A stretch of DNA of 64,000 bases from Ascidia mentula (taxonomy: Eukaryota; Chordata; Ascidiacea; Phlebobranchia; Ascidiidae), in contig OX387199.1 in the NCBI GenBank assembly GCA_947561715.1, positions 21,085,001-21,149,000 of the forward strand. Reading direction: 5' to 3'. Each line of letters opens with the position of its first letter. The stretch's first letter is position 1. The position numbers and the translations under genes were made by a program. This document shows positions 16,256-49,361 of the stretch, piece by piece. The notes beneath the pieces are model-generated. The model saw only the letters and a list, made by a program, of their open reading frames with translations. It had not been told where the DNA came from and did no database searches.

Positions 16256-16365
16256 AAATCAGGTTTCGAAATGATTGTTTGATATTTAATTAGCTGGCAG
16301 ACTTACAAAAATCTTTTAGAAAAAAATCTTTACAAAAAACACTTAATTTGTTAACATGTGTTTAC

Positions 16366-26774: not shown

Positions 26775-29700
26775 CTATTTGGGTCCAGTAGTTTTTTGAT
26801 TGAAGTATTCGTCCAACGATAACTTTGATGATCTGATTTTTACTGCAACCCCCGTTGAAAACCCGACAACACCACCTAACCCTGCACCAACGCCAGTCCC
26901 AATAACCCGGCCCGTATCACCAAATTTTTTTCCAATCGCTGCCCCAATATCAGCCCCCTTTATTGCTGCATTTACACCATAGTTTGCACCGCTTATAAGA
27001 ACTCTTAGAAATATAGATTTGTTGTGTTCGTTGTATTTCTTCACTTTCTCGTAAAAGTCCTCGACTTCTTTGTTGAACTTCTCAACAAACTTATCATTTA
27101 TGAGTGAAGATTCTGTTGTGAACACTGCGGATAATTGATCTTTTCCCATTTTCATGCGTCTAAGATGTTCTTCTTCTAAAGCCGCTGGTTTCACATATTT
27201 TCCCTCACACAACTACAAATAAAAAAAAATTAAAAACTTTCCTATTTGCATTTTTATGACCGGACATCCGCTATGAGAATGACTCTACAATTTGACATTT
27301 GCGTCGTTTTAATGCAAAGCTGTTTTTTAATATAAGTTTCCTTTATGTCTTGTCCATATGAATGTGGTCTTGCGTTTGTCAGTGGTATTAAAACTTTCTG
27401 TTCCATTCCCCAAAAATAGAACTCAAAACCCAGCTTCGCCGGTCATCCAAATAAAATGAGGATGGAAGTTAAAATTAAGTCAAAAACGAACATATTTTTC
27501 AGCAGATCGTGCCACTGGGCCTTGATAAACGTTCATTAGCATCCGCTGTAGGCTTATCCTGGTTTCAAAAAAAACACTTACGTCCTTTATTGATCCCATG
27601 TAAATGCCAATTTGTCTCTGCAGCTCAACATCATATTTTTCCTTCAACTTTTTCTGCGTTTTGAAATACATTTGATAACAAACCACTAGAGTGCATTTGC
27701 TTCGACATGACTGTTTTTATGTACGGGTTATTTGTGTTACTCACAAGGAATGTAACCAAAAAGTTCTATGTCATCCCTATGTTCTTGGCTATGTATGATT
27801 TGCCGAACTTGTGTTGAGATTAAGTGGTAGGCAATATATTGATAATAAAAGGTATACGGTTACAAACTTGCTGTACAGTGTAATTAACCCTTTACTCGAA
27901 GCAAAAAAAACGTTCAGTGCCCTTTCAAAAGTGCTAAACGTGTTGGGGGATCCATCCACCAACATACTTACAACCGAAATAGAATTACCGAGAGCAATTT
28001 TTGATGTATGAAATTTAATGTAACCTTTTTTAATTTATAGGACAATAAAGTTATTTTTCAGGAACCATCATATGAAATAAAAACAAGCGCTACTGTTTTC
28101 GCATATTTACTGAAAATATAATCTATGTATGATTTTGTTACACTTGCCTTGCGTTCTTGGTTCATTTTCTGAACTACTTCATAGTATTTTTTTATGCCTT
28201 CCTGCAATTCAAGTTGTATAGAATTGTAATCGTCGAACAAATCTCCTGCAGAAAGTTTTCCGAATTCTTTCATTGCAAGTGAGTTGTTATTTGAATGAAC
28301 TTCACGTAATGAGTCTCGCGTCATACACTTCGCCATATTCTAGTAATAATTTGTTTTTGTTTTGTTAACATCAAACTGCTTACAAAATAGGTTTCATGGC
28401 GTATTTACCTCGTCCATTCTTTGTTGATATCTGCGGTATATTTCTGACTTTTTCTTTCGAAATTCTCGAATCGTTTGTTCCTAAATTTAGTTAAATACAA
28501 AAAGGTTAGAAGCATTTAAAAAAAAGATAACTGCTAGCAGGGCAGGGAATTATAAACAAAAATTCACAAAGAAAAATTCGCACCTTCCCACCCCCTTAAA
28601 TTTCTTCTTTGGGCGCTTATAGTTCGATCATTATTGATCCTGTCTTGTTATACCAACAAATTATAAAAATTGCCAATTTTTAATCAACCTTAAATTCTTT
28701 GTTTCTCATTTCAATACGAGTAAGTTCCTTCTTGATCATTGTTTTAAATTGTTTGTCCTTGAGTTCCATTCCAGTTAGAGCATCCCTTGCATACTTTTTG
28801 CTGGTTTTATGATGTTGTTTCAGAGTTTCCGGTGTTTTGTAACCGGTGCCACATACCTTCAAACATTACACATACTAGTAAGATACCTTTATTTATTTGT
28901 GTTGAAGATATTAAAAATTAAATTTTGTGTCTAACCATATCCATATTTTGTCTATAACGTTGCTTTGCTGCATGCAGAGCATCACATATTTTCTTTTGCT
29001 CCATCCTCAGCTTATTTAAAAGACAAAAGTAATTTTATTTCATCCGCACTAATAAAGAGATATATTTTATTTAGTGCGCTAACTTGATGGTATATTTTTT
29101 TATTTTCTTCAATTTTTGTTTGGAGGATTTCGCGTTCCATGTTAATCCATTTTGTGTTGTTGTCAGCATTTAATTCATCAAACTTTGAGACTGCTTTTCT
29201 TTTTGCACATTCGTGGGCTTCATCAAGAAGATCACCATTGAGCAACTCTTTGTTCCATTTCTGTGACAAAATTAAGAAGTGTTTCATGTTTGATTGCGAC
29301 ACAGAACAATTGATTATGTTTTACTTTAATTTTGTTTTTCGCGTTGACTTACCTCGTTCATAAATTCTCTGTAAATCTCAAGGGAAATTTGTGCTTCAGT
29401 TTCAAGCTTTAGTTTCAGTGTTTCCTAAAACACAATCATTGCAAAATTTATGTTCATGTTGTGATCAGTTGTTGACCCCCGCGTTGTTGGCTAGTGCCGC
29501 TAAAACTTGTTCGAGATGAGCTATCCTTACAGTTTACATTTTAAAGTGCATGTGACACGGAAAAATAAAACATATTAATGAATACACTAAAAGATGGTCA
29601 TAATTTTTAAACATGTTTGACGAAAAATGTGGCTTGATATGGCGACTTGGTTTCTGAGATACAGCTGATCAAAGTCGCGTTTAAAAGGTTGCGAACGAAA

Positions 29701-32700
29701 TGGTGCGGAAACGAGATTATTGTTCCGTGACATCATAGAAGGCGCTTTAGTCGTGCGAGTACTGGCAGCAATGAAAACATTGTAAAACTGGTTTAGCATA
29801 TAAGCAAAAAAAGCCATAATAATTGAGAGCGAAAGGTACTTGGAAATCAGTGTGCCCGCTAGTGTAAAAGCTAGCACAGTGTCACTTCAAAAGCTGCACT
29901 GGTGAGACCTTATAGGTCGAAACAGTGTGTACACCATGCAGCTGGTTTAATATAGTTTTGCATTATACTGGACACAACAAGTGAACAAGTGAAACAAACG
30001 GATTTTGATGTTAATATAAGTTGAAGACAGATGACCGCTGTGTCGGCCTATCAAGTCTTATAGAGTTGGGTAATAATAAAACAATTACTGGGTCAGGTGG
30101 TTCTTGTGGTTAATGTACATATGACACGGCCATGACAACTTTGCGTAAAACTAAAGGCACATCTACAACAAACATATATCCAAAGTTTTTCAGTTCTACG
30201 TCAACTAAAAAATGTAGAAAACTGCACGAAAAGTAGCGGCGACCAAAAATCGTAAACCTTGTGCGCTGAGGAGAAAAGGAGGCGCTTGCGTTGAAAAAAT
30301 GCAATGTTTAGATAGGAGAAGGCGCCTTTTTTTGCAGATATCGAATAGTTTCAAACATAGGAGAATCCACAGATTACGTTACTGAAAGGTCAGGACAGGG
30401 TTTTGCTTCACACAAAAATATGTCATTGTGACGTCACAAACCAAAGGCTTATTTGTCCCTAATTAACGGAAGACCATAGGGTATAGCAGAAACGACATTA
30501 CTCTGTACTTCGATAAGACGGGAATGGTGCGTTTCTTTCATTACATGACGCCATTGACATTACATGACGCCATTTTGGGTGGGATGTCATGACGCCAAAG
30601 TGCGACTTTGATCAGCTGTTTCTCAGAAACCAGTCGCCGTATCAACCTACGTTTTTCGCCAAAAATGTTTTAAAGTTATGAACATCTCTTAGTTTGATTA
30701 TTAACATGTTTTATTTTTACGTGTCATATGCACTTTAAAGCTTTTATGATCGCCAACGTGATGCATGAACTTTTGTAAACACGACAGACACAAACCGTCA
30801 ATTAAGCATTGCCGTTTTGTTCACTCACAGCAAAAGATGTAAGTAATTGAACTTTGAGGCTGCCAAACACCGCCGAGAAAACCCGACCAAATTAGCTGAT
30901 TATGCAACACAGTTTATATTGCCACTTTTTGCCTGGCAGTACCGTTGCCTACGCGTTCGCTTCATAAATGATTTGATCAACTAGGCACAATCAACCATTA
31001 ATGCATTTTTCGCAATATAGTTCGTAACTGGAAATGTTGAAAACATCAAATTAAAGTTAACACAAAGGTGAGATTAAAGTTATGACATCATACCCAAAAC
31101 AACGTCTTGTAATGTCACTGAACAAAGAAACGCACCAACCCCGTCTTATCGAAGTACGAGTAATGTCGTTTCTGTTACACCCTATGGTCTTTCGAAAATC
31201 ATGGACAAATAAGCCTTTGGTTTGTGACGTCACAGTGACATATATTTGTATTATGTAATACCATGTCCAGACCTATTAAGTGACGAAATTTTTGGATTCT
31301 CCTGTGTTTGAAACTATTCGATATCTGCAATATAAGGCGCCTTCTCCTATGCAAACAATGCATTGTGTGATGTCCTTTTCTCCTCAGCGCAAAAGGTTTA
31401 CGATTCTTGGTCGCCGCTACCTTTCGTGCAGTTTTTTACATTTTTTAGTTGACGGAGAACCGAAAAATTTTGGATGTATGCTTGTTGTAGATGAACCTTT
31501 AGTTTTACGCAAAGTTGCCATCACCGTGTCATATGCACTTTAAACTGTGACTTATTGATGCAAACTGAACAAAATGTCACCTGTGTAACAACAATACTTA
31601 CAATATTTTTTGCGTTTTCTTCCCTAAAATGTTCACGCAGTTTAGTCAACAAATTTTCTAATTGTCTTGCGGGTTTAATCTCAGGTTCATGGGGCAGATT
31701 TTGTGTAGAAACCTCGTAAGATTGAATCGTTTCTTCTCGACATCCTTTTTCAATCTCTTCAAGCTGAGTCACTTCTAAACACTGTTCATTGACAACCTGA
31801 ATATTAAAGGTTTTTATCTTATTTCCCACTTTCAGTTATAATGGAATCCTTATTTCTTGTTAGATTTCTTTGTAAGAAATTAATTTTTGCACCATATCTG
31901 TCATCCTTTTTTAACTTTTTCGGTCGCGATGACCAATTGCTAAGAATTTTGCGACACACAGTGAATACAGAGCATGATATTTTTTTTTCTAAATATGAAA
32001 AAAAAAAACTTTTGTATATTTTGGTGCCGACTAATTTCCCTCTAGTGGGAAATATCCCATCGATAAAAAAGCGATAAAAAGCATTTGGGATCACTGTTTG
32101 CCAAACAAAATGAAGGTAAATTAAAAACTCTTACTTTCTGCATTTCCACTTTGTACTTTTCTTTGGCTTCCCTCACAGCTTCGTTAACAGTCATTTTCCA
32201 ATGTTTCTTTAAACCAAGTTTGTATATTAATTTTTTTAAGGTAATAAGTTTAATACTAAAAAATTACTTTGACTTGCATCTTAGATTATTATATGTAAGA
32301 TCCTAAATTCGGCACAATATTGTCAAGTTTACCCTAAGAAAGCTTAGCTGAATACCAGGTGAAAGTCGGTAAATGTTTTGTTAACTTAATCAACATAAAA
32401 TTACAGATAGTTACATAGTTTCCACAAACCAGATTAGTTTTGTTAATTTTTTTGAACACCGCAAACTCCAAGTCCACGTATTCACGCAAATGTTTCCTGT
32501 ACTTCGCAAGAAACTCAGCGTCACCAAGATGTGGTTCGCTATCAAAGTTTTTCAGAACTTCTGCTTTTAAGCTTTTATGTTTCTCTTTAAAGGCTGTTTT
32601 GTTGTGACATCGGTCATTACAAAACTACAAAGAACGCATAAGGAAGTAACTGTTTTAGCAACTTAATAAAAAATTCAAATTACCTTGTTCATTTTTTGTT

Positions 32701-35700
32701 TATAGCTATTTGAGCATTCTAAACTGGCTTGTAAAGCTATGTTTTCTGCTTGCGCCTGAACAACAAAATGTAAAAATATTTTTTGATTAAAAAAATATAA
32801 AACAAGAATGTGACAGGAGAGGGAAAACTAGAATTCACTACAGTTATCACCCAAGGAAAGTATACGAGATTTTATATTGTTTGTAAGGTTGTTACGTTTT
32901 GGATTTTCACATTTTGCATGTCAATAAGTGTCTGACGTCTAAATCCAAAAGAAAACTTACTGAGCAAGCAACAAACTACGTTTATTTGTTTAATGAATAA
33001 ATATTAAATCACATAAAATTGTGTAAATTCTCTTTTACTATGTGGTTTCATGCAATTAAAGTTATTACCTGTGCTATCGCCTTAACATCAGGCATTTTCC
33101 CAATGCTCAGTGCTTTAAAGTAAGACAAGCTTAAATTAATAAGATCAGTTCCTGTAACTGGATTGCCGTTAACTTTCTTTGTTATGACTTTTTTCCTTGA
33201 AAATATGCTTTTTACCAGTAGGTCGAGGCTGTCAATAAACTCATTTCTAAGATCTGCATCATTTGAAGAAAACAATTGTTTAAAAACCACGAGTTACTTA
33301 TTACTAATATGTTATAAAAATTTGAATATTTTTTTTCTAAACTTGCAAATGCTACCTTTTAACTGAAGGTGACTTCCTTGCTTTACTTTTCTTTCAGTAA
33401 CATTAAATCCTGGATGTGGCATCAAACAACAAGAGATGTTTTCAAAAGCACCAAGCAAACCCTTCCGAACTGATTCAATTTCTGGTTGTTCTGAAGTGGT
33501 TTCCAAAATTTTCTGAAGATATTTCACACCACCATCGAAATTACATTTGTAATCTGTGAATCCCCAATCACGAACAAGAAACATCAAGTGCTTGAAATAG
33601 AATTGACATTGGGTAAATTCTAAAGGATGAAACTAATTACTCTACAAAGGCTTTTCTGGCGTAATTTCATTACATCATCGTTTCGGTTGCTATGCAGCAG
33701 CCTACATCATGATGTAGAAACGTGAATGTGCAGAATAACACAACGTCGAGGCGCACCAACTGAGAAAAACGTTAGAATGGAAAAACAAAAGAAAAACGAT
33801 ATGGAATGGCAGGGCGGACACATCAGCACTACAATTATCGGCAACCACGGGTTACCATAGTGTTTGATGTACACGAGGTGCAGGGGCAGAATTGCCTGGC
33901 AAGTGTCGATACACTGGGGGAACTGGAAATGCTGTACGCCCCTCGTGGGTGCATGTGTACATTAGAGATGTGACCAAACGCAAAGAAAAATCGACTCTCT
34001 CTTACCATGCGGCCAAAAAGGGACATATGGTGGATTTTAAAAATACCGTGATTTTGGATCACGAATCTGACAGGTACAAGAGATGTTTTTGGAGTAGTTG
34101 AATATAAAGCTTCTTCACTGAATGACAAAAAATAAATCCTGTTTCCGCCGGCTTACCGACACTTGCTATAGGCAATTTCGCCCTTGAACCTCTTGCACTA
34201 CAAAAACAATGATAACCGTGGTTGCCGATAATTTTAGTGCAGATGTGTTCGTCCCGCCATATCGTTCTTCATTTCTTCTTTTTTATGTTCTAACGTTTTT
34301 CTCAGCTTGTCCGCCTCGAGATTATCTACTTTATTCTGTACAGATGTAATTGATTATTGCCAGAAGATCGTTTTTATGCAGAATGGCACAAAAAAGTTAA
34401 ATTACCTGAAACGAAGTTGTGATGTTTTTCGGTTTGATCCTGTCAGTTTCATTCCATTCATAGATCGTCTGTATGGGGACATTCACAAACTTTTCTGCCT
34501 GGTGCCATTTTTTTTCGAGATAAGCCATCCAATCAGCACTCTTTGAGTATTGCGTAAATAGCTTTGAAAATATTGGTTTTTTAACCCATAAACCCATGAG
34601 TTTATTGTGATGATTGAATTGCTTAATTTATTTGTGTTATCGTCACTTTGACTTACATAAAGATGTTGTAAATTGTCCCCTTGTGTTTGATTGGACACAT
34701 TATAGATTTGAAGCGAGCTCATCAAAGTGCTGAATGCAAATATGAAAGAACAACCTTTCACTGTGTCTTGGTGATCAAAAGACCCTTGAGAATCCATAAG
34801 AAATAAAGCAACCTATAAACATATTGCATATGTTTATGCTGCAAAAACGTTCATATCATTTAACAATTGCACACAACGCAAATCTTTTTATTACTTTTGT
34901 TTGTGGTGTATCAATGAAAAATGGCTCATCCCAAATCCAAATTCCTTGTGTGTGTCTCTCGTTACCACCTCGCCATGAAAATCCTTCAACCAATTCATCT
35001 TCTTTGGATTCGAGCCACGAATCCGACTGTTGTGAACGACAGCAAAAAAGTTATTCGGTTTCGAATTAGACGATATCTTCTTCAAGTTTGTTAAATATTA
35101 TTATAATGTGTTGTGCACTGTACTTTCAATTTCGGTCAAGAAAAAACAGCTTTGCTTAGTGCATAAATAATTTCCATGCCTTGTTATTTCTCTCCGCCCA
35201 CAAAAATCTCAGGAAGAAGTTCAACATGAAGGATTTTCCACCCCTGAAAGCTCCAGCAATTGAATAGATTGCAACCGGTGTGTTGGCCACATCTGGTTGG
35301 CCAAATATTCGTTCAAGTTTATCAGCATCGATTTCATAAATGTTTTCTTGTTGTGAAACTGCCTGTAGTATTTGTACAGCTTTGTGTGACTGAACAGTAC
35401 AAGTGGGCTCTAAAAATATGTTTCTTGGGAAAATAATGTATATGACGGGCTAAATTTTTCAAACCATAGGTTCAAAAAGCGTCGGATGTATTGATTTCTT
35501 ATATTTTTATGCGGTACAAGGCCAACTTAAAAAAAATGTTTCTTTAGCTCTAGAGCATTATCAATTAAACAAATCTGCTCCTAAACGAATGCAGTTATTT
35601 TTAAGGGGTGAATTCAGTTTACCTGAAGAAGAGTCAGTTGAAGTTGGAGGTCCAGCTATTTCAGATGTGTCATGCCTTGTTCGAAGATCTTTGTATTTTT

Positions 35701-35833
35701 TATCAGAAATACAATCTTCATTAGAATAGTCGTTTAATTTCACTTTGACGTAATATATGCAATAACACTTACCATGGTAAGTATCATCCCCTTCATCACT
35801 CTCAAAACAGTTGGAATGATCTGTAAACTCCAT
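26775..35833 (-). CDS. Atlastin/GBP-like GTPase with six tandem middle-domain units and a glycine-zipper tail (paralogue A)
   Basis: Twenty exons chain in phase without stops to 1024 aa: 35833-35773, 35742-35623, 35409-35180, 35026-34895, 34812-34657, 34561-34406, 33590-33356, 33253-33069, 32755-32684, 32624-32430, 32206-32135, 31796-31602, 29424-29353, 29260-29084, 29010-28936, 28856-28689, 28480-28409, 28339-28148, 27653-27582 and 27212-26775. The GTPase motifs are P-loop GAFRGGKS (113-120), switch-I Thr163 in [13 protein letters not shown] (188-191) and the GBP/atlastin RD motif in FLVRDW (292-293). From residue 426 come six units, each a short helix ending YxxxM(N/D/Q)(E/K/M) plus a longer helical segment. 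This is the atlastin middle-domain pattern, normally present once. The tail (about 960-1005) is Gly/Ala-rich ([18 protein letters not shown]). Introns 3 and 18 start with GC. An upstream in-frame Met lies at 35935. AATAAA occurs at 26694-26689. The likely role, from the family, is GTP-driven membrane tethering or remodelling. Confidence 0.88.
29536..31545. mobile_element. Nested inverted-repeat (MITE-like) elements in intron 12 of paralogue A
   Basis: The left end at 29536 (aaagtgcatgtgacacgg) and the right end near 31545 (gtgtcatatgcactttaaa) are inverted. Inside, 30112-30739 is a second copy in the opposite orientation with its own inverted ends. The two arms of the family are arm a (gatcagctgt with tctcagaaacc) and arm b ('tgacaactttgcgtaaaact'). 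No transposase is seen. Related pieces occur at 8.7, 43.1 and 44.9-45.6 kb. It sits at the point where paralogue A has two helical units more than paralogue B. Confidence 0.75.
33760..34305. mobile_element. Foldback insertion with about 165-bp inverted arms, in intron 6 of paralogue A
   Basis: The arms 33760-33925 and 34140-34305 are inverted copies, with outer ends ctgagaaaaacgtta and taacgtttttctcag. The interior plus strand (about 33.93-34.10 kb) reads [11 protein letters not shown], then [13 protein letters not shown] and [11 protein letters not shown]. This resembles the C-terminal part of GIY-YIG-type endonuclease regions in Penelope-like retroelements. It looks like a captured or truncated retroelement tail. 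No complete enzyme is present. Confidence 0.6.
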
Positions 35834-35839
35834 GCTGCA

Positions 35840-37570
35840 AAATGTAACAAAATATGTAAAAAATGTTAATGATCTCACCGTAAAATTTTTCCCTATTAAA
35901 TGCTTGAACCTTTTTGTAAACGACAAAAATGGCATAATCAGGCTGTAATAAGTTGAAGAAAAGAATTTACGCTAAAAATTAATGAAGTCCAGTACAGTAA
36001 GTTTGTTGACTTCCACTGCCCAATAAACGAAATGCTAGGATGCGTCCAGCCAAAATCGCTTCCTTGCTATGATTAACCACAAATGCATGTAAACGCAATG
36101 ACGTCGCTAACAGGCGCTAGAAATTTGTGTGTTTATAAACACTTTCAACGATATACAGAACAACCCAATCTAGAATCTGCTGATCCAGAGCTTCGGATAA
36201 ACCGAATCTGCGTCAAAAACTGACTGGCTCAACTTTTTGTAGCAACGACTGTCACAACTCTTTGATTGCAAAAGCAGTTGGCTCTGTTGATCTCTGTGTT
36301 AATATCCTTTACTGTTGCAAAACTCTTACCGACCTTTATTCTTCCACACAAACTTTATTGCCTGCAACCCAGACAGCCAAACACCGCGAGAAAAATGTAA
36401 TTGTGTGTGCTCGGTTTAAAAATTAACTTTCAACTTTAACATTCTCGTAAACGCTTGCATCGTTGAATCGCATGCGTGTGTGTTTGATATTTTATGGGTA
36501 AACGTGCGTCACTAACAAACAGAAATGTTTGTGAACAATGCGGATTGTTGTGGCTTGCCAGTAGGTATCTGAAAAACTCTTTAAACGGATTCTGCGATAA
36601 ATGCTTGTGATTTGATAAATATTATTTCCCTGATACGTCTTGCAACCTTTCAGAAGTTATATTTTGAACATGCATTCTCGGTTTTGTGATGACAATTCAA
36701 ACTGCAATAAATCACTAAATAAAGTACCAGACACATTTCATGAATTCCTTTTTGTTTATTTAAAGTAAATAAACACCATACACAAAGTTTTGTCATTTTC
36801 TTCCTTGTGTTGGGACCAAACGCGCACAACAGTCATTAAAATATTGCAGTGTGGAATAATCTAACCAAAATAACAAAACGATTATTACAATGTGTGTTGC
36901 TTTCTGATATGTGTAATTAACTCCTCGTTTTTCCGGGCAGCTTCTCGCCAACCACCTAAGGTTCCAAGCTGTGCGGTTCTCGTCAGTTTATTGCCTCGTT
37001 GACGGCGTAATTGTACGGGAAACGATAAAATTACGAGTTATATTGTGAAAAAGAGCCATGAAAAAGGGCCCGTTTTTCTGTGGCAGTGTGAGTGCCTTTT
37101 TCTTTTTGTAGATCACATAAACTTATAGTGAAACCTAGCATTTACGACAAAAATCCCTTAATTTTGAGGAAACAATGGTGTTCGTGGGTCCCTTTTGGTA
37201 TTCATGCCCCTTAGTCTGGCATGGGTCCAGGTGCGCTGCTCAACGGTTACTAGCTGCAGACACTTGGTCTCATCAGTGCAGCTGTTGACTGTGGCACTGT
37301 GCTAGCTTCTACACTATCAAGCACACAAATTTCCACTTTGTGGTACTTTCCCGGTAAAAGAACATCATTAAACAGGGAATGGAATTATCAGAGGAAAATA
37401 TTAAACCCCGCTCAGACCATGTATGGCTCTACCAGGGAAAGGTTGTCAATCCTGTCGTAAAGCTTTGTAGCACGTTTGCACATTATGCTATGTTACGCGT
37501 TACAACATGGGTTCGATATTTGCTGTGACAGGTCCACAACATGCTTTTCTAACCATTAAATTTTAAAGCA
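35840..37570. other. 5' flank of paralogue A, no gene seen
   Basis: The first exon of paralogue A ends upstream here, and a longer in-frame N-terminus to 35935 is possible. Otherwise I see no exon, recognised repeat or RNA gene. It should contain the promoter, but no clear motif was identified. Confidence 0.35.
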
Positions 37571-37769
37571 GGTTAATTTAATAAACGCATGTTGACGTTT
37601 TTGGAATTGCTATTAAAAGGCTTTCAAACCACGCGCAATGACACCATTTAAAGCAACAATTAACTACGTTAATACAAGTTTTACGAGCAAGCAAACATTC
37701 CCGTGGGGCAATGCATTGCTTCCATGACATGTTGTATAAATACCAATTGCCTGATAACTTATTCAACGT

Positions 37770-38300
37770 TGTGTTTGGCAGTGTCGATTTACAGATGAAT
37801 CCAATTAACATGTTTGACAGTTGCCATCTGTATGCAGCTCACAGTGTTCATATTATTGGCCTCATGCTTATTTTTACCACTAAACGTTGGATGACACTAC
37901 AATTAGGTTTAGCTATAGAGTAAACTGCGAATTTGAAATGTTCTGTAAAAGCATAAGCAGAGGGTGCTAAATCCATTGTCTTCTAAATACTTTGTTCTAC
38001 CAAAGTCTTTCAACACATCTGCTTTTCTGCTTTTCTGCTTTTCTGCTTTTAATGTTTTTTGTTAAGTTGGCTGTGACGTATGTGTTCACAAAACTACTGG
38101 AATAGGAGGAAGCCGATTAATATTTAAAATAATTCATTTCCACATATCGCTAATACGACCACTGGAAAAGTTATTTCGTTGTTTTTGTGAGGATGTCCTC
38201 AATGGAACCATCCAAGGCCGCAGTGCATATGTCAATATATTTTATAGGAAACCAAACACTCGTGACACGTCGTAAAGTAACAAATGATCGTTGCGTGTTT
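37770..38300. repeat. Spacer repeat, copy 1 (matches 40.15-40.53 kb)
   Basis: Shared landmarks are 'gtgtcgatttacagatgaatccaa', ttttaccactaaacgttgga, and 'cgtaaagtaacaaatgatcgttgcgtgtttt' in pieces. A third, shorter match is at 52.22-52.40 kb. Non-coding. Confidence 0.75.
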
Positions 38301-38329
38301 TAACAACATTGCAACACAAGTCAAAATGA

Positions 38330-38720
38330 CAAACGCCGTCGGTGAAAAAGGGAACTAACGTTGTGATGACGTAGGTCGTGAACGCTGTAATTGATACGTG
38401 AAGGTATTTGGCAGAGGCGTTGTGGGTTACATGGGCCGTTAAAAATTGTTAAAACAAAATCTAATTTGCTTTTGGCTCTGAAGACCCCTGCTTGGCGTTC
38501 TAAGCACACAAAGTAACTTGCGACATAACTATTTTTGCACGGCTTACGTTTTAACATTACTTGATCTAAATAAAGTTAGTAAATTTTTATTCCTGGTAGT
38601 GTAGATGAAATATGAGGTTGTGGAGTTTGTGCTATCCAGACATAAAAAAAAACAATTATGGCCAGTCTTTAGCAAGCTTCGATTAGTGGCACGATGTAAT
38701 ACACCTTAAATACATCTGTA
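38330..38720. repeat. Second member of the 'gccgtcggtgaaaaaggga' repeat family
   Basis: Near full-length match to 10.59-10.99 kb over the same features: cgccgtcggtgaaaaaggga, 'gatgacgtaggtcgtgaacgctg', and 'aacaattatggccagtctt'. It supports a roughly 400-bp element. Confidence 0.75.
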
Positions 38721-38867
38721 AACATAGGAATAGTCGATCTGTGCAGACGAGACGTACGATGCATATTTTTTTTCCTGTTCTTACGAGACGTACAATTATA
38801 CCAATTTGGGGCTTTCTTTTCTAGTATGCTACGCTTGCTTCATTTCCGGTTTATTATTAATGCCCTA

Positions 38868-38942
38868 AACATGTGGATTGAAACAAGCCTTAAACACGTG
38901 GATTGAAATAAGCCTTAAACATGTGGATTGAAACAAGCCCTA
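38868..38942. repeat. Short tandem repeat, three units of about 25-30 bp
   Basis: Three units of aaacatgtggattgaaacaa (with g/t variants) follow each other. A simpler repeat of 'cttttctgctttt' lies at 38016-38050. Confidence 0.8.
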
Positions 38943-39199
38943 ATTAGGAATTTTTTTACTGTAATTTTTAAAGTTATAGAACGACTGTAAACTTTTCGTT
39001 AAAATTCGTTAAAATTCGAGTAGCTGATACAACGCAACTAAGTCGAACAGGTAATTGGTCAAGACACTGTATTGTTTAAATTCACTTGCTTCGGTTGAAA
39101 AGTGTTGTACTAACACCCTGTTTTGAAGGTACATAGGACACATTTATTCTCTCAACATCTTTGACACAATTTTGAAAATTTGATATTTCCAAACAAATT

Positions 39200-40540
39200 T
39201 AGCAAAACGTGTTTTTATTTGGTTCGGTTTCCTGACCCCTTCAAGGAAATGGAAATTCAATTAATCCTAACCCTTTAATCAAAGAAATCAAGGATATGAA
39301 ACGCCAAACCAATGAATTGCACAACATTGCGACACAAGTCACCATGAAAAACGCCGTCGGTGAAAAAGGGAATGTTGTGATGACGTAAATCGTGCGAACG
39401 CTGTAGTTGAGGCGTGGAGGTAATTGGTGGAAGCATTGTGGGTTCATGCGCTGTTGCAAAAACTCTGAAACCGCCTGGTTGGCATTGAAGGCACATAAAG
39501 CAAGTTCTTACAACGGCTTCGACTAAAGGTTTTCATAGACAGAAATCACTGTGATTACCGCCAATATGTGCAACATATTTACCGCAATATAGAGCTACAA
39601 AGACGAAAAATCGTGGCTAACGCTGCGAACATGACAGAACAGAAGAATCACACCACCATGCTTCCTGTTATGTTACATCACTTGATTCGCTTCAACACGC
39701 ATATTGCTTGCGGTGTTACATTTTAATCCAATGCGCCAAACATGTGGTTCGATACAAGCCTTATTGTCCTATGTACGTCGTGGTAAGTACATGAATTTAT
39801 CTCATCCTGACTGGTAGCAGAGTTCACGTTAAAAGTAGCTTAGTTGCACAGCAAGTGGCAAAAAAGTTCTGTATCCATATACGCTTGCACAGGTCTGCCC
39901 AACATGTTTTTGACATTTTTCTTATAGGGATATTGTTTTAAGTGTCGCATTGGATTAAATGATAATCTGAATACTATACTTGCGATGAATCAAGTATTCG
40001 ATGCATTTAAGCATGGACTTGAATGCGATCATTCTAGGTTATCAGGGAACATTCTTTTGTAATCAATTTGCAACAAAAGTAAAGTGTTACTAATAAACTC
40101 AGTGTGGGATATGGGTGTTCTTGTGGTGACAATCTATTCTAATTGACAGGAGTGTCGATTTACAGATGAATCCAATGTTCAGCCATTCTTAAACATAACT
40201 CGTTTAGGTTTATGCTTATTTTTACCACTAAACGTTGGATGACACTACCATTATTAGACTAAGAAGTAAAGTTACAAAACATATATGTTTTGCAAAAGCA
40301 TAAGTAGAGGGTGATAAGTTTATTGTCTGCAAAATGCGTTGTTCTACTGAAGTCTTTCAACCCTTCTGACTTGACTAATACGACCGCCGGAAAATACATT
40401 TTGTTGTATTAGTGAGGACTTCTCAGTGGAACCAACCAAGGCCGCAGTGCATATGTCAATATATTTTCTAGGAAAGCAAACACTCGTGACATGTCGTAAA
40501 GTAACAAATGATCGTTGCGTGTTTTCGTGTGCTGTTCCGA
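39200..40540. repeat. Duplicated spacer block, copy 1 (matches 50.87-52.40 kb)
   Basis: Collinear landmarks shared with 50.87-52.40 kb are ggttcggtttcctgacccct, the 'gccgtcggtgaaaaaggga' repeat, the string gattcgcttcaacacgcata, and 'ttagttgcacagcaagtggca'. It lies between paralogue A and the 3' end of paralogue B. Short plus-strand open frames at 40.43-40.75 kb have no recognised family. Confidence 0.8.
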
Positions 40541-41744
40541 AGAATCGATGGTCGCTACACTCAAACGCAAAGAAAGCAGAGATCCTTCTTTTAATTCAGT
40601 ATTGCTACCAGGGTTAGTTCATCAATCCGTAAATCTGGCTAAATGTTCACAAGGCGAGACATCAAGGGCGTATATTCAAGCGGAACTGCGAGATAACACA
40701 AAGTTGTCTGCCATCTCCAACTTGGTAAACGTCCAGGTTGCCCTGCACTAACGATGTATACCGCCAGGCTGGACCCGCGTGTTTATGGCCCTCTTGTATG
40801 TAATGGCCAGGACTTACAAGATGGATTGTGGTTTTCAGTGTTAATCGTTTTTTATCAAATTACATTCTCGATAAAAATTTTCCAAAAAAATATAAATTAT
40901 TTGTATGAACTGAGAAAGGTACTGTGGCGAAAATGACACACGGTACTAATTCCTTTCTTGTTTTCTTCTTTGATGGTCTGAGTTGTTTATTTAAAGCACT
41001 CCTTATTACATATATGCACACAACACTTTAGCGGTTCGAGGTTTTTCGGCTTTAGTAGTGAGCCGTTATTGCATAGTCCGGGCCTTGTCTGAATTAGGGT
41101 TGCAGCGTTGCGGAGCCGATAAAATTCCTTAACTGTACGAAAAGGATCCCAATGTTTTTAAAGCACGACCCAAAAGCACACCTCTCGACTTTTTACCGAA
41201 AACTGTATCGCGTATTACATTTTACATTCCTTCCATTTAATTTTGAAAAAATTAACCAAGCAGGCGTCAATTATATTCATGTCTGCAACACTTAAATGCA
41301 GTTATCCAATGATATTATGCAGCCAATGTATTTATTTGCAATTAGCAATACAATAAGCAAACACTAATGTAAATTGCTTCATGAATATAAACTCTACAAA
41401 CACAACACACTAATTCGAATAAAAATAATTTACGCTTGGAAACTAAACATAAGCCATTGCAGTTAAGGTAGATTTAATCAAATTCGTGTGGCTCCTGTGT
41501 TCAATTAGGCGGTTAACTTGACAGCTATAAATTGCGATACACATTCACTGATGCATGGATCAATATAACAAAACTTTCATCAATTTCCATACAAAAGCAA
41601 AATAACATTGTGCCAAACAGCAACACGTATTTTTAAGCCAAAGTAGAATAGTTTATTACAGCAAATACAAGCATTCTGCATAATATCCGATAATAATCAT
41701 GTAAAGTTTTCCAAAGGTAAAAATGATCGGTATGTTAATGTCTC

Positions 41745-42737
41745 TCATGGGGCATCGGTGGTGTCCGGATTGACAACATCGGTGAACGGCAACTTTGGTG
41801 AATTAAGTTCTTCTACAATCCCCATTGCAAACCCGCCAATAGCTCCTCCCACAGTACCAATACCAGCCCCAATAACCCCGGCTTGAACGCCAAGAGCACC
41901 CCCAATTATTGCTCCCAACTCAGCTCCCTTTACTGCTCCTTCTGCCCCTCCCTTCAGAGCGCTTATAAGAACTCTTACAAATATAAGTCTGTTATGTTCG
42001 TTGTATTCCTTCACTTTCTCGTAAAATTCCTCGACTTCGTTGTTGTATCTCTCCACAAACTCATCTTTAATGGGCGAAAATTCTTCTGTGAACTCTGCAG
42101 ATATTTTTTCCTTTCCTTCCATTGTTAGTCTGGTGTGTTCTTCTTCTAGAACAGACGGTTTCACATATTTCCCATCGCATAACTATGAATAAAAAACACT
42201 ATAAAAAGACTGTTTCCTTGTTTTTTTCAGAGTCCAGCCCTCTATCCTTGGATTCTATCAGCGACACCAATATCCTATTTTGGTATTAAGTAAATATTGT
42301 GAAACTACCAAGTAACAAATTGAAGTCAGCTGATTTATTGACAAAAAAAAGAATCTATTTGAATAAGAAACTCCAGGCGAAATCGATTTTTCAATATTGT
42401 TAATAAATCAGCTGACTTCAATTTGAAACTTCTGTTAGTTTCACAAAATTGACTTAACACTATAAAAACTTGTTTTTTCTGCATATTTTTAGAGAAATAC
42501 CATCTTCAAATATTTCCATTGAGAAATTCTCATTTTCGTTGCAAATGTGTCATTAAAAAAAAGAAAACCTAAGCGAACAATTTTAAAGAGAAGCAATAGC
42601 AACCACGGTGACAATAAAATATACATTTGGACCAAATAGAATAAACGGAATGTGCAAAAACTCACATCTTTCATTGTTCTCAAGTAGATGCCGATTTGAT
42701 TCTGTAAATGTGGTTCATTTCTTTCCTTCTGGATTAT
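41745..42737 (-). CDS. Second, alternative pair of terminal exons of paralogue B
   Basis: Exons 42737-42666 (72 nt; NEPHLQNQIGIYLRTMKD) and 42182-41745 (438 nt with stop; starts LCDGKYVKPSVLEEEHTRL, ends FTDVVNPDTTDAP) have the same lengths, phases and splice sites as the proximal pair 44888-44817 and 44604-44167, and as the last two exons of paralogue A. Both copies are open. They could replace the proximal pair by alternative 3' splicing, giving a tail with VGGAIGGFAMGIVEEL instead of VGGAIGGFVMGVVDEL. A canonical AATAAA lies downstream at 41657-41652; at the equivalent place after the proximal copy it reads CATAAA. They could also be an unused duplicate, but the intact frame argues for selection or recent origin. 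Confidence 0.75.
42200..42457. mobile_element. Small foldback insertion in the distal copy's intron
   Basis: Inverted arms lie at 42299-42342 and 42399-42444 (aaattgaagtcagctgattt and its complement). The larger inserted segment is flanked by 'acactataaaaa' copies at about 42199 and 42457, looking like a target duplication. The proximal copy at 44.61-44.66 kb lacks it, which gives the empty site. Non-autonomous, no coding. Confidence 0.7.
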
Positions 42738-43194
42738 CTGTGTAAAATATCGAGTGTAGTCAACGCTTAACTCTAAGCAACAATCTTCAGACAAGTTGCA
42801 TGTCAGATTTGTATCGACTTATAGGAAAAACTTAAAGTGATGTGTCCAGAAAAACTAGAATAATTTAGAATAATCTTTCAGAAATTTCGGGCGAAAAAGT
42901 ATTTGAAACGGAATACGGAAACTTCATGCGAAACAAAAGTCAGTGTGAAACTGCTCAGAAATTTTTGCATTGGATTTTAATTGTTTATTTGAGTTGCAGA
43001 CAGATTGCTACTGTTCTGACATATTATGTCTTATTGACTTACAAAGTAAAAAACTGTAACAGGGGCAGGGTGTTTTTGTGGTCAAAGCCTTTATGATAGT
43101 TTTGAAGTGCATATGACACGGTCATGACAACTTTGGTACATCTACCACAACAAACATCTTCCAAAAGTATTTCAAAGTAAGAAAAGTAAAGTGG

Positions 43195-44930
43195 TTGCTG
43201 CTCTACCGTTAGGTTTGCCGGTAAGCGATCTATACCGCCAGACTGGGCCCGCGCGTTTATGGCGCTTTTATATGCAATTAGCAGGACTTAAAACCGTGGT
43301 TTTCAGTGTTAATCTTTTCAATCAAACTACAATCTCAGCCAAATTTTCAAGCTTTGTAAAATGGTTTTCATGAACTGAGCAAGGTACTGATGCGAAAATG
43401 ACAGATGGCACTAATGCATTTCTTTAGGTATTCTATGATTATCTGTGTTGTTTATTTAAAGCATTCCTTACATATATGCGCACAACACATTAGTGGTTTG
43501 AGGTATTTTGGATTTATTGGTGAGCCGTTATTGCAGAGTCCGGGCCTTATCTGAATTGGGGAGGCTTCTTGAGGAGCCGTAATAATTCCGTAACTGTACG
43601 AAAAGGATCGCAATGTTTTTAAAGCAAGACCCAAAAGCAAAACTGTATCGCGTATTACATTTTGCATTCCTTCCATTCAATTTTGAAGAAATTAACCAAG
43701 CAGGCGCCAATCGTAATCATGTCTGGAAAACTTAAATGCAGTTTTACAATGATATTATGCAGCCAATGCATTTTATTTACAAAGTGCGAACACTACTTAT
43801 GTACACTGCTTTAAATATAAACTCTACAAACACAACACACTAATTCGATTTAAAAATTCAATTTTTGCGCTTGGAAACCATTTTAAACATAAGCTATTGC
43901 TGTTAAGGTAGATTTAATCAAGTTCGTGTGGCTCCTGTGTTCAATTAGGTGATTAACTTGACAGCTATAAATTGCGATACATTTTCACTGATGCATGGAT
44001 CTATACAACAAAACTTTTAAAAATTTCCATACAAAATCAAAATAACATTGTGGCAAACAGCAACACGTATTTTTAAGCCAAAGTAAAATAGTTTATGACA
44101 GCAAATACAAGCATTCTGCATAATATCCGATAATAATCATGTAAAGTTTTGGTATGTTAATGTCTCTCATGGGGCATCGGTAGTGTCTGGATTGACAAAA
44201 TCGGTAAACGGCAACTTTGGTGAATTAAGTTCATCTACAACCCCCATTACAAACCCGCCAATAGCTCCTCCCACAGTACCAATACCAGCCCCAATAACTC
44301 CGCCCTTGCCGCCAAAAGCACCCCCAATTGTGGCCCCCAACTCAGCCCCCTTTGCTGCACCTTCTGCCCCTCCCTTCACACCGCTTTTACGAACTCTTAC
44401 AAATATGAATCTGTTGTGTTCGTTGTATTTCTTCACTTTCGCGTAAAAGTCCTCGACTTCGTTGTTGAATCTCTCAACAAACTCATTTTTTATGAGGGAA
44501 AATTCTTCTGTGAACTCTGCACATATTTTATCTTTTCCTTCCGTTATAAGTCTGGTGTGTTCTTCTTTTAGAACTGGCGGTTTCACATATTTCCCATCAC
44601 AAAACTATGAATAAAAGACATCATAAAAAATCTTGTCTTTCGGCATATTTTTGGTGCGGTACAATTTTTAAATATTTCTATAGGGAAATTCCCTTTTTCC
44701 GTTGCGATTGTGTCATTTAGAAGAAGAAATCCGAAACGAACAATAGCAACCATGGTGCCATTTAACGATATATCCGGACCCACATGTAAAAAAAAAACGG
44801 AAAATGCAAAACTTACATTTTTCATTGATCTCAAGTAGATACTAATTTGATTCTGCAAATGTGGTTCGTTTACTTCTGTCTGTTTGTTCTGAAAAATAAC
44901 AAGTGTAGTTAGCACTTTATGTCACACAAA
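43195..44930. repeat. Duplicated 3'-end block of paralogue B, proximal copy
   Basis: See the distal copy at 40.75-42.84 kb. Matching landmarks include the flank 'tggtgagccgttattgcagagtcc', 'gtgtggctcctgtgttcaattagg', and both terminal exons. Confidence 0.85.
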
Positions 44931-47900
44931 ATAATTAAACGTATGACATGATGATAACTTTTAACAATTTTTAACGAAAAATGTAGTTTTAAAACGCTAC
45001 AGATTTTTGAGTTACAGCTGATTAAAGTTACGTTTAAATCGTTGCGTACGATATCGTACAAAAGCAAGATCATTATTTCGTGACGTCATAGAGCGCTTTA
45101 GTCGTGCGAGAGCAGCGAGCCTTACGCATAGGAAGTAGTTTTGCATCAAACAGGAGCGCTTAAACAGGACAAGCGAACAATTGAAGTAAACGGATTTTGA
45201 TTGCTTATTTGCGCTGCAAATGGTCACTGTTTCGACCTATTGAAGTACAGAGTAAAGTCGATGCTGCTGTATCTTTTGGATTTCCGTAATCAACGACAAA
45301 TCCCAAAGATTTTGGTTTATGTCGTCACAGTGACGCATTTTTGAGTGATGTCACAACTTGCCATGACCTTTGATTTACCGTAATTTGGTGGTTCTTATAT
45401 ATTTTTTGAACTATCGGGTATATTCAGTATGTGTACTTTTCCAATATGAACAAGGCATTTTTGACGCAAATCATTTCTATGACGTCAAAGTCGCTAGCAG
45501 AGAAAAATATTTACGATTGCTCGCCGCTTTTCTCTCTATTGTGTTGACGTAGAAGCGAAAAACTAGAAATATGTTTGTTGTAGATGTACATTTAGTTTTA
45601 CACAAAGTTGCCATGGCCGTGTGGCATGTATTTTAATTTTGTCCTACAACTCCTTGTCACATTATTATTATTAACTAAACGTCGTCGATCATCAGTTTTC
45701 ACGTGAATTAACTGTAAATAAAAACTTACATATCCTATGTAAATTTAAACTTGCCTTGGTCTGCAAATTTTCTTTCTTAAGTGTCTTATAATGAAACTTT
45801 ATCATATTCTCCAATGCATCTCGCAGAGATTCGTGTTCGACATCAAAACCTGTCTGGTCAAGCTTTTCAAATTCTTCCATTGCAAGCAATTCGTTTTTTG
45901 AATGAACTTCATATAATATGGCTTGCGTCATACACTTTTTCTTTTCCTGAAAATATTTTTTTTGCGTTTAAATTTAAACGCATTGTAGAAGTAAAAACAC
46001 AACAAGCGTAGTTACATTTTGAATTCTTTGTTTGTAGTTGTCAAAAATTTTAAAAATTTCGCTTCGTAGGGTTCTTTGTTTCTACAGAAAGATTTAAAAA
46101 CAAGAAGTGTATACAACAGGGCACATTTATTTGCAACATTTTTTTAAAATATTTTTTAAATGTATTCTATAAACATCACCACGTTGAAAAGCATTCAGCT
46201 GGGTGAAAAATAGCTTTTAGGTACAAAATTTGAAGTAAATTACTTTGAATAGATAAAGGTAACAAGCAAAGTTAGCTCATAGCACTCATGATGAGCACAG
46301 TTGTGTTTAAATGGATTGCTTGGCATTGAAGCTTTGCCTTTTTTGTTTCTTATTCAATTGTATACAACCTGGAAAATAAAACTGAACGTGGTTTTACACT
46401 GACTTACGAGACTCTTCTCGTTTTCTTCTTGGAATTGTTCGCGCAGCTCATCCAACAAATCTTTTAACTCTCTGTCCAGTTTAATATCAAGGTCAGTTGG
46501 AAGGTTTAGTATCAATTCATTGTAGGATTTGAAAGCCTTGTTTCGACATTTTTTCTCAATTTCTGCAAACTGATCTTCTTCTACAAATTGTCCATTCATC
46601 GCCTATAAGTTAAATTAGTAAATGCTTTCTGTCACCAAACAACTAAAATAATTTAAACTTTTAAAATATTTCTGATTTACTCCCAAATAAAATTAAAATT
46701 CATTAAACAAAAAACATTACTTCATGCATTTCCTTTTTGTAGTGTTCTTCGGCTTCGCTTATACCTTCGTAAACAGTCGTTTTCCAACGTTGCTTTATTA
46801 AATAAATTGATTATTTTTAGCTCTACTTGAAAATAGCTTTAGAAAAAAAAATTACGTCTAAACATTACAAATAACTTTCACACCAACAAACAGGTTAAGC
46901 TATTGTTAAAATCACAACAAGCAGTCATATAGTAGGTTGCACGCACCAAATTAGTTTTGTTAATTTGTGTGAACACAACAAACTCCAAGTCTATGTTATC
47001 ATTCAATTGTTTTCGGTACTTGGCTAGAAACTCAGCGTCGCCAAAATTTGGTTGGGTATCAAAGTACTCCAGAGCTTCTGTTTTTAAGCTTTCATGTTTA
47101 TTGGCAAAGACAGGTTGGCTGTAGCATCGTTTATCACAGAACTGCGGAAAATTTTGAGATTTAAGTCATTTACTTTTTAAAAATTTTTGTAATTTTTCTA
47201 CTCATACCTCGTTCATTTGTTTTTTATAGTTTTTCATGCATTCTTGTATGGCGTTTAGAGCATTGTTTTCTGCTGATGCCTTAGTAAATCATGATAAGCT
47301 TTTTATATAAAGGAAAAAAAAATTAAAAATTAAAAAAAAAACTTTTTTTGGAAACAACGTTCAGTTTCGCTTGCAACGTAAATTAGTCCTGAAGAAATTT
47401 TACCTGAGCTATGGTAGAAACTTTGGGCATTTTCCCATCGTTAAGTGCATTAAAGTAAGACAAGCTTAAATCAATAAGCTCATTTCCTGTAATCATTTTG
47501 CCGATAGATTTTTTAATCACAACTTTTTCATGGGCAAAAAGTTTTTTCACAAGTATTTTGACCGTGTCAAGAAACTCAGGTCTGACATCTGGAATATATA
47601 ACAAAAAAATAATCTCGAAAGCCTCATAGAAGATTATTATTTCACTGTGGAGAATTTTTAACAGCTTTCCAAAGACTGAAAACTTCACCTTCTATTTGAA
47701 GTTGACTTCCTTCATCCTCATCTCTTTCAGCAACATTTTCTCCTGGATATTTGATCAAAAAACAAGAGATGTTTTCAAAAGCATCACGCAAGCCCTTCCG
47801 AACTGATTCAACTTCTGAGTTTTTTGGAGTGGATTTGAGGACTTTTTGAAGATATTTTTCGCCACCATCGATATCACACTTGTATTTTTTGTCACCCCAG

Positions 47901-49361
47901 TCACGAACAAGAAACATTAAGTCCTTGAAATAAAATTGAAATTAATTATAATGTAGAGACTAATGTGGTAAATAAATTATTGCTGAATATTTCTCATCGT
48001 TTTCATGTAAACTGACACGAAAAAGTTTAGTAACCTGAAATGAAGTTGCGGAGCTTTCCGGTTTGTTCATATCAGTTTTTCTCCATTCATTAAAAGTCTG
48101 TCTTGGGGCCGAGACTAACTTTATTGGGTCCGAAACTAACTTTGTCAGGCTGTATAACTTTTCAACATAATTCATCCAATGAGCGCTTGTTGCGTATTGT
48201 GTAAATAGCTGTTAAAATAGTGGTGGTTACGTACTTATCTCACTTAATATCGCCATTGTGGCTAACCTGAAGATGTTGTAAGTCGTTTCCTCCAATTTGT
48301 TTGGACACATTATAGATTTGAACCGAGCTCATCAAAGTGCTAAGTGCAAATATGAAGGAACAGCCTTGCACTGAGTCTTGGTTATCAAAAGATCCTTGGG
48401 AGTCCATGAGAAATAAAGCAACCTAAAAATAAATGTATGTATTTAGGCTGCAAAAGAGCATGTACTGTTGCAAAACTACGAATATTCCAATTTGGCTCTC
48501 AACCGGGGTAGCGTGGCATCATGCGGCAACGTTTTAATGTTTTGCGGTACTGTTGTGTAAGTGCACCAATTTTTTAAGACCATGTTCCGATAGGTGTAAA
48601 GCGAAGTCAAGTACATGTTTGGTTTCTATTTATCACGATTTTCATTTACCAGCATCACTTGATCACAAACGCAGTTGATGAAAGACACAACAAATAATAC
48701 AAATGCTCGTTGGGTCGCTATTGGGTGTCACAAAGGATTTGCAAGCTCATATTATACAGTTATTAAACGCCCCAAGGCACAACTTGAAAGCATTGCAACA
48801 AGTGTAAAGCATTATAAATCATCATATTTTATCATTACTTTTGTGTTTGAAATATCAAAGAAAAATGGTTCATCCCAAATCCAAATTCCTTGTGTGTGTC
48901 CCTCGTTACCACCTCGCCACGGAAATCCTGCCACCAGTTCATCTTCTTTGGAATCAAGCCACGAATCCGACTGTTAGAAACGACATTTAAAACGGTTACC
49001 ACTACTTTTTGATCTATTTTTACTTTATTATTTTTTTCCGCCCACAGATAACGGAGGAAGAAATTCAACATTAGTGATTTTCCACCCCTGAAAGTTCCAG
49101 CAATTGAATAGATTGCAACCGGTGTGTTGACCACATTTGGATGTCCAAATATTCGTTCAAGTTCATGATCATCGATTTCGTAAATGTTGTTTTGTTGAGA
49201 ACTCGGCCGAACTATTTGTATAGCTTTGTGTTGTTGTCCAGTACCGCTGCATTCTTGAAAAACAAACATATTCTTGAAATAACTGAAAGAGTTTTTGCTT
49301 CATTGGGGTTAACTTACTATGTCACAGAATTTAGTTACTTACCCCCCACAAAGGACGACAT
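44167..49361 (-). CDS. Atlastin/GBP-like GTPase with four tandem middle-domain units and a glycine-zipper tail (paralogue B)
   Basis: Fifteen exons chain in phase without stops to 810 aa: 49361-49343, 49253-49024, 48970-48839, 48422-48267, 48208-48035, 47923-47689, 47588-47404, 47279-47208, 47141-46947, 46792-46721, 46602-46408, 46081-46016, 45946-45755, 44888-44817 and 44604-44167. The GTPase motifs are GTFRGGKS (59-66), switch-I Thr109 in [13 protein letters not shown] (134-137) and the RD of FLVRDW (244-245). Four helical units follow from residue 378; units 1 and 2 have exactly the exon sizes of paralogue A (72+195). The last exon ends with the Gly-rich segment IGAGIGTVGGAIGG at about 765-778. 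Exon 5 has 18 nt more than A, an apparent tandem repeat (KLVSDPIKLVSAP). Intron 13 starts with GC, as at the equivalent place in A. The N-terminus is shorter than in A. The likely role, from the family, is GTP-dependent membrane tethering or remodelling; the tail may insert into or oligomerise at membranes. Confidence 0.88.
44900..45645. mobile_element. Inverted-repeat (MITE-like) element in intron 13 of paralogue B
   Basis: Arm a at 44.94-45.09 kb (gagttacagctgattaaagt) and inverted arm b at 45.58-45.64 kb (cacaaagttgccatggccgt) match the element family of 29.5-31.5 kb. It is about 0.7 kb and has no transposase. A further arm-b fragment (gcatatgacacggtcatgac) is at 43.10 kb. Confidence 0.65.

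Follow-up and report, generated by a model that had tools for sequence, protein, structure and literature searches.

The 64,000 nucleotides of the Ascidia mentula genome analysed here (assembly GCA_947561715.1, contig OX387199.1, positions 21,085,001 to 21,149,000; this whole stretch is called the window, and positions are counted from its first letter) carry two large GTPase genes on the minus strand. Their products appear to be derived from atlastin, with the three-helix bundle of the middle domain present six times in gene 1 and four times in gene 2, and with a glycine-rich tail in the place of the transmembrane hairpin. The preferred interpretation, which is given a probability of about 0.5, is that they are atlastin-derived large GTPases whose amplified stalk and Gly-zipper tail serve to tether, coat or fuse membranes, likely in an immunity similar to that of the guanylate-binding proteins (GBPs). 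At the level of sequence, the gene structure, the atlastin ancestry, the relation of the units to the bundle, the series of 4, 6 and (in a paralogue on C67) 16 units, the recurrence of the tail and a ratio of nonsynonymous to synonymous substitution rates (dN/dS) below 1 can be regarded as established. The genes seem to be part of a large GTPase family, so far little known, whose members differ in stalk length.

Gene Structure

Gene 1 (35833-26775) has 20 exons and a preferred product of 1015 amino acids; the start of its exon 2 is uncertain, and alternative choices of this exon give 1006 or 984 amino acids. Gene 2 (49361-44167) has 15 exons and encodes 810 amino acids. The exon ends of both were picked by hand and checked by script. 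The original prediction gave products of 1024 and 810 residues, of which only the second length was recovered, while its claim that both genes chain without stops agrees with the rebuilt models, in which all exons join open, in phase and with AG acceptors. Every one of the 33 introns in these models ends in AG, and 30 start with GT and three with GC. One GC donor follows exon 3 of gene 1 (GCATGG), and the other two (GCAAGT) come after the long exon of the penultimate unit, one in gene 1 and one in gene 2. Since the latter donor occurs at the same place in both genes and is common to three paralogues, it is conserved.

The motifs of the GTPase domain that had been predicted are all present, with a P-loop of GAFRGGKS or GTFRGGKS in the two genes, the switch-I threonine (RHTQG or GHTQG), DSQG and the RD motif within LVRDW. 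The predicted six and four pairs of a short and a long helical exon were likewise found, every one of the ten in phase 0-0. The short exon is 72 nucleotides long in eight of the ten units, the exceptions being unit 4 of gene 1 (75) and unit 3 of gene 2 (66). In both last exons the Gly-rich segment directly follows the motif YNEHN[KR]xIF[LV]R, as expected from the predicted Gly/Ala segment at the atlastin hairpin position. The C-termini are TTGPK and TTDAP, with no CaaX box. The features, with unit scores on a bundle profile described below, are as follows.

33069..35833, minus: gene 1 start codon and GTPase (LG) domain, exons 1-8; gene model, atlastin-1 match, Pfam GBP E 4.1e-54
32430..32755, minus: gene 1 unit 1, three-helix bundle; short exon 32755-32684, long exon 32624-32430; 112.6 bits
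31602..32206, minus: gene 1 unit 2; short 32206-32135, long 31796-31602; 22.0 bits
29084..29424, minus: gene 1 unit 3; short 29424-29353, long 29260-29084; 18.7 bits
28689..29010, minus: gene 1 unit 4; short 29010-28936, long 28856-28689; 26.0 bits
28148..28480, minus: gene 1 unit 5, with GC donor; short 28480-28409, long 28339-28148; 17.7 bits
26775..27653, minus: gene 1 unit 6, Gly-zipper tail and stop; short 27653-27582, last exon 27212-26775; 19.4 bits
26832..27020, minus: gene 1 Gly-zipper segment, last-exon residues 65-127, predicted helical hairpin of low confidence; GxxxG excess, model
47404..49361, minus: gene 2 start codon and GTPase (LG) domain, exons 1-7; gene model, Pfam GBP E 7.4e-54
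46947..47279, minus: gene 2 unit 1; short 47279-47208, long 47141-46947; 123.6 bits
46408..46792, minus: gene 2 unit 2; short 46792-46721, long 46602-46408; 17.1 bits
45755..46081, minus: gene 2 unit 3, with GC donor, the weakest; short 46081-46016, long 45946-45755; 11.8 bits, reached by 3 of 2000 shuffles
44167..44888, minus: gene 2 unit 4, Gly-zipper tail and stop; short 44888-44817, last exon 44604-44167; 26.3 bits
44224..44412, minus: gene 2 Gly-zipper segment, predicted helical hairpin of low confidence; GxxxG excess, model
41745..42737, minus: duplicate terminal pair downstream of gene 2; 42737-42666 and 42182-41745; 24.1 bits

Ancestry of the GTPase Domain

The product of gene 1 matches human atlastin-1 with an E value of 2.8e-75 over residues 48-234 and 273-502, which span the GTPase domain through the first exon pair, and another atlastin (3x1d) with 1e-73, whereas GBP1 is matched at only 4e-11. 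Because the atlastin-1 match far exceeds that of GBP1, the head can be assigned to the atlastin type. The Pfam GBP GTPase family, which includes both GBP and atlastin, is matched at 4.1e-54 by gene 1 and 7.4e-54 by gene 2. The GBP C-terminal model (PF02841) scores 18.9 bits in gene 1, below the cut-off, and 45 bits in gene 2, above it, with a second stretch counted in each; the best stretch covers positions 2-117 of its 297 and corresponds to the last part of the GTPase region together with unit 1. An ordinary GBP is ruled out by the two E values and by this partial match. A Sey1-type origin was also considered and has no sequence support, no Sey1p being named among the 20 matches listed for gene 1. 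On these comparisons the genes belong to an atlastin-derived branch, for which the originally proposed "distinct GTPase class" is too strong a term.

The Stalk as Multiplied Atlastin Bundles

An ordinary atlastin is encoded in the same genome, near 11.38 Mb of C67. Its bundle starts with a 72-base exon in phase 0 at both ends, preceded by AG and followed by GT, and continues in a phase-0 exon; this second exon is interrupted further on in the ordinary atlastin and uninterrupted in the window genes. Since the short exon has the same length of 72 bases in eight of the ten units and phase 0 in all, the repeated pair appears to be the atlastin bundle pair, multiplied. A profile of the first-position and C67 units (eight rows, one of them a composite written by eye) matches the three-helix bundles of atlastins among solved structures, with E 9.4e-12 over positions 2-87 of 89. 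When all 11 window units are used, that is, the ten exon pairs and the duplicate end, the profile matches atlastin-3 at 4.8e-13 and GBP5 at 1.9e-4.

The bundle profile that gave the unit scores was trained on 11 sequences without any window unit (paralogues, C67 units and two atlastins). All 11 window units score between 11.8 and 123.6 bits on it, while the reversed sequences give 0.1-3.6. For ten of the units all 2000 shuffles stay below the real score, gene 2 unit 3 being the exception. In an earlier test with 15 later-position units from the window and its paralogues, between 0 and 2 of 4000 shuffles reach the score and reversed sequences give at most 3.8 bits. Chance is an unlikely cause of the architecture, given these scores and the GxxxG excess in the tails. 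Judged from exon structure and profile scores, the repeated units and the three-helix bundle of atlastin are related and the middle domain is multiplied, in line with the original prediction. The profile check that it proposed gave resemblance to the atlastin bundle, which speaks against a single ordinary GBP stalk unlike the atlastin middle domain.

The Gly-Zipper Tail

With the last exon of gene 2 as query, 42 places are found in the genome. Five of these stop short of the Gly-rich part and one is a split match; without them 36 remain, including the three in the window and four with stops (another count, of 40, still includes four of the five short matches). The transmembrane hairpin of the ordinary atlastin, used in the same way, finds one place only, C67:11378997-11379233. 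Fourteen tails were read for sequence analysis. Their GxxxG content exceeds that of shuffles with p <= 0.0045 in 13 and p = 0.051 in one. The best 19-residue Kyte-Doolittle mean ranges from 0.81 to 2.29 and is at least 1.6, the usual membrane threshold, in nine of the 14; the two tails of many-unit genes on C67 are strongly hydrophobic (2.29). AlphaFold2 models of low confidence, built from three sequences each, give two long helices with a sharp turn (residues 64-95 and 99-126 in one, 65-97 and 99-127 in the other). Some 20 residues lie C-terminal to the zipper, in the region where atlastin has its amphipathic helix.

Repeated GxxxG motifs in a two-helix segment are shared with the Gly-zipper hairpin proteins SlyB, TraT and C19orf12. 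The similarities are under the curated cut-offs wherever such cut-offs exist and may be compositional, with E values of 0.016 for the Gly-zipper 2TM family (a window tail), 0.05-0.13 for TraT and SlyB and 0.0055 for C19orf12 (a C67 tail). Equally weak matches were obtained to unrelated families and proteins, among them DUF6861, DUF6911, MtrG, DUF1269, a bacteriocin model, a P22 ejection protein, an amidase and an antibody fragment. The Gly-zipper helices of C19orf12 are predicted to span the membrane, according to the excerpt of the source (PMC4470416).

These properties bear on an alternative in which the proteins are not inserted in membranes. The Gly-rich tail would then be a helix-packing oligomeriser, and the stalk would build GTP-dependent coats or filaments on the surfaces of pathogens or vacuoles, in the manner of GBPs. 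Charged residues in the first tail helix of both window genes and a single segment near the membrane threshold would suit such a coat, as would the above-cut-off GBP_C match of gene 2, the expanded and clustered family and the antiviral activity of a silkworm atlastin paralogue without transmembrane segments (excerpt of PMC4926086). On the other hand, the tail lies exactly at the position of the atlastin membrane hairpin, both many-unit C67 tails are strongly hydrophobic, and some of the weak similarities are to membrane Gly-zipper families, though the unrelated ones are no weaker. A soluble coat is thus rather unlikely, while remaining a serious candidate, and a tail that inserts in or packs on membranes is preferred.

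Paralogues and the C67 Array

The long exon as query matches 75 places in the genome, including two regular series on C67, and the GBP-type GTPase model finds at least 154 exon places, a lower bound and not a gene count. Among 27 long-exon and tail places, 22 have a fitting short exon with splice sites among the two best upstream candidates. Within the cluster of the window itself, four paralogues follow the order of GTPase exons, unit 1, unit 2, unit 5 type and tail; one of them has only a partial match to unit 5, one carries a stop in the tail, and one lacks the first GTPase exon and has another of its GTPase exons 5.5 kb away. A second six-unit gene (C52:20968637-20974503) has units 1, 2, 3 and 4, the fifth short exon and the tail in the same order; five of its six long exons were found, the fifth not.

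A much longer stalk was found by a motif and splice-site search at C67:22211155-22224699, where a GTPase head is followed by 15 short (72-base) and 15 long (189-base) exons. All 30 are open with AG and GT at their ends, and the spacing is about 640-750 bases. The series closes with one more short exon, the 16th, and a last exon that carries the Gly-zipper tail, which makes 16 bundles. Units 2-15 are on average 90% identical with a dN/dS of 0.44, and the 62-63-base introns within the pairs are 79% identical. At the neighbouring C67:22232417-22249285, known from query matches only, the long exon is matched 15 times, once with a stop, and the tail is 98% identical. An artefact confined to a single gene is ruled out by the paralogues and by this array. 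Three further observations concern the array. By eye, its long exons are of two types, which alternate at 12 of 14 steps (C67:22213473-22223396). Thirteen of the 15 within-pair introns have no in-frame stop, so that retained introns would stay open. Finally, the head of the 16-bundle paralogue (C67:22211155-22211800) has the motifs GASRTGKS and DTEG, which are more GBP-like than those of the window genes.

Comparisons of gene 2 with three paralogues gave a dN/dS of 0.13 each for two concatenated GTPase exons and 0.53, 0.41 and 0.57 for three concatenated long exons. A value of 0.77 was obtained for the long exons of one paralogue pair and for two long exons of gene 1 against the six-unit paralogue; single exons reach 1.5 with few changes. 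Three comparisons of gene 2 exon 6 with paralogues were misaligned (35% identity) and are excluded, and the values also leave out pairs whose members differ in length. Gene conversion is suggested by one GTPase exon that gene 2 shares unchanged with two paralogues.

The regularity of the exon pairs also allows a reading in which they are a splicing library. Not all pairs would be included together, and in-frame subsets would give stalks of varied length or a chosen bundle, in the manner of Dscam. The phase 0-0 pairs and near-constant exon lengths of both the window and the C67 array fit such a library, as do the 79-97% likeness of the 15 C67 pairs and the terminal pair duplicated downstream of gene 2. 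The last exon of this duplicate is 89% identical to that of gene 2 itself with a dN/dS of 0.40, and the pair may provide an alternative last exon (the product would again have 810 amino acids) or be a remnant. However, mutually exclusive arrays normally duplicate one exon and not a pair, and the units within genes 1 and 2 have diverged from one another and occur in a constant order in paralogues, suggesting that each has its own place in one protein. A selectable library therefore seems improbable, and stalks in which all the units are joined are preferred.

Evidence Weighing Against the Interpretation

Several results count against an intact, membrane-associated protein built of atlastin bundles. 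For the stalk, unit 2, the only later unit searched singly against solved structures, gave no relevant match. In profile-profile comparisons, seven of 28 pairs score no higher than the top one of ten column shuffles (r2-r5, r2-r6, r2-c67, r3-r6, r4-r5, r5-r6 and r5-c67), all six pairs among units 2-5 have a probability under 1%, and values above 50% are reached only between the first-position and the C67 units and between each of these and the atlastin-1 bundle. Gene 2 units 2-3 also have a sub-threshold similarity to an unrelated Pfam model, Cmi2 C-terminal (E 4.1e-4, 21 bits, cut-off 27). The middle units thus appear to have diverged, and their relation to the bundle is carried by the profile scores and the exon structure. 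The tail is borderline as a membrane segment, with Kyte-Doolittle means of 1.61 in gene 2 and 1.47 in gene 1 compared with 2.29 for the ordinary hairpin, and a second hydropathy segment stays below 1.5 in all 14 tails. The tail models have a mean pLDDT of 54 and 61 (56-76 per ten-residue block in the hairpin of the second), and a fold search with the gene 1 model was uninformative, with 107 matches at E <= 10 and none at 0.001. The GC donor after exon 3 of gene 1 is a possible defect and may mean that this gene is damaged. Certain paralogues are incomplete or have another arrangement: the copy at 21.047 Mb has units 1 and 2 only, that at 21.153 Mb a unit 1, a unit-1-like and a unit 2, and that at 21.197 Mb a unit-1-like and a unit 2, each without a tail match in the stretch read.

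The last two points, together with the stop-bearing copies and the degenerate long-exon-like pieces at 37938-38061 and 40285-40368, are what would be expected if fragments of an expanded GBP/atlastin family had been joined by prediction and no functional long product existed. Such an account is very improbable, since it would have to explain the open, in-phase exons with AG acceptors throughout both models, the unit order kept in paralogues, the dN/dS below 1 in concatenated comparisons and the 15 of 15 intact pairs of the C67 gene. The preferred interpretation remains that of long, functional GTPases.

Other Features of the Window

The degenerate pieces between the two genes, seen by eye on the minus strand, sit in a region duplicated at a spacing of about 2.2-2.3 kb and are possibly remnants of further copies. 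An inverted-repeat element of ~2 kb (29540-31543), with arms 83-91% complementary, lies in an intron of gene 1 and has a relative in an intron of gene 2 (45233-45636); it looks like a DNA transposon or a miniature inverted-repeat transposable element. Named by eye, the neighbours are open frames like those of a retroelement reverse transcriptase and integrase (7113-7532 and 53734-54663, plus strand), GPCR-like pieces with LDL-receptor type A modules (14739-19659, minus strand) and a 327-amino-acid open frame that looks helical and is possibly TPR-like (56822-57802, minus strand).

Comparison with Known Systems

The metazoan atlastins (ATL1-3 and Drosophila ATL) are fusion GTPases of the endoplasmic reticulum. 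Atlastin consists, in the part of the source available, of a GTPase, a three-helix bundle, two transmembrane segments and an amphipathic helix, and acts between opposing membranes in a GTP-dependent manner (PMC12312388). The window genes share with it the GTPase domain with intact P-loop (including the Arg), switch-I threonine, D[ST]QG and RD/LVRDW motifs, the 72-nucleotide phase-0 short exon and the first three-helix bundle. They differ in having six or four bundles (16 in the C67 paralogue) instead of one and a Gly-zipper segment where atlastin has a two-segment hydrophobic hairpin.

The yeast and plant endoplasmic reticulum fusion GTPases Sey1p and RHD3 have a stalk longer than that of atlastin, with several helix bundles, and in this they are similar, but the window bundles are tandem duplicates of an atlastin exon pair. 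GBP1 and GBP5 belong to the same superfamily branch, form a clustered family and also have more than one bundle in the stalk, although the window GTPase is far closer to atlastin, the C-terminal model is matched only in the first 117 of 297 positions and the CaaX box is absent. The GBP middle domain is made of two three-helix bundles that share a helix, as stated in the excerpt of PMC9005921. The silkworm BmAtlastin-n, an atlastin-family paralogue of 770 amino acids, lacks transmembrane segments, has a coiled-coil middle domain and is antiviral on overexpression; neither tandem bundles nor a Gly-zipper tail are described in the available part of that paper (PMC4926086).

The original prediction knew of no described protein with such a layout. 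No multi-bundle atlastin is reported in the titles and abstract beginnings of the open-access literature among the matches listed, but multi-bundle stalks as such exist in GBPs. What appears new is the atlastin with many bundles, while the two-bundle GBP stalk and the long bundled stalk of Sey1p are already known.

Proposed Mechanism and Biological Meaning

In the proposed scheme, the ancestral exon pair for the atlastin bundle, in phase 0 at both ends, would have undergone tandem duplication, and an exon encoding a Gly-zipper helical hairpin would have taken the place of the transmembrane hairpin exon. Following the atlastin scheme as given in the excerpt of PMC12312388, GTP binding would dimerise two GTPase heads, the bundles would build a rod and the hairpin would serve as an anchor or oligomeriser. 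The number of bundles would set the distance from head to tail. The zipper tail may insert in or pack on the membrane and oligomerise through its GxxxG faces, and the protein would tether, coat or fuse membranes, or hold membranes or particles together across the rod. A wider form of the scheme, in which dozens of GTPases with a common head and zipper anchor form a modular rod system with 4, 6 or 16 bundles, the module count setting the reach of a tether or immune coat, is doubtful. In that wider form, single loci may in addition vary the length of the stalk by splicing, since every bundle is a phase-0 exon pair.

Large expansion and clustering are features of immune GTPase families. Because the family is a large clustered expansion, the most likely function would be a GBP-like one in cell-autonomous immunity, followed by organelle tethering. 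GBPs were not found in Ciona, according to the excerpt of PMC4926086, and that of PMC9005921 raises the open question whether atlastins have assumed GBP-type defence where invertebrates have no GBPs; this question and the antiviral silkworm atlastin (PMC4926086) offer a lead towards immunity. Studies of how atlastin converts GTP into membrane fusion focus on how a single bundle moves relative to the head. Similar heads carrying 4, 6 and 16 bundles would form a natural series for deciding whether this module acts as a lever, as a spacer or as a dimer lock, and the family bears on whether atlastins replaced GBP defence in invertebrates that lack GBPs (PMC9005921, in excerpt).

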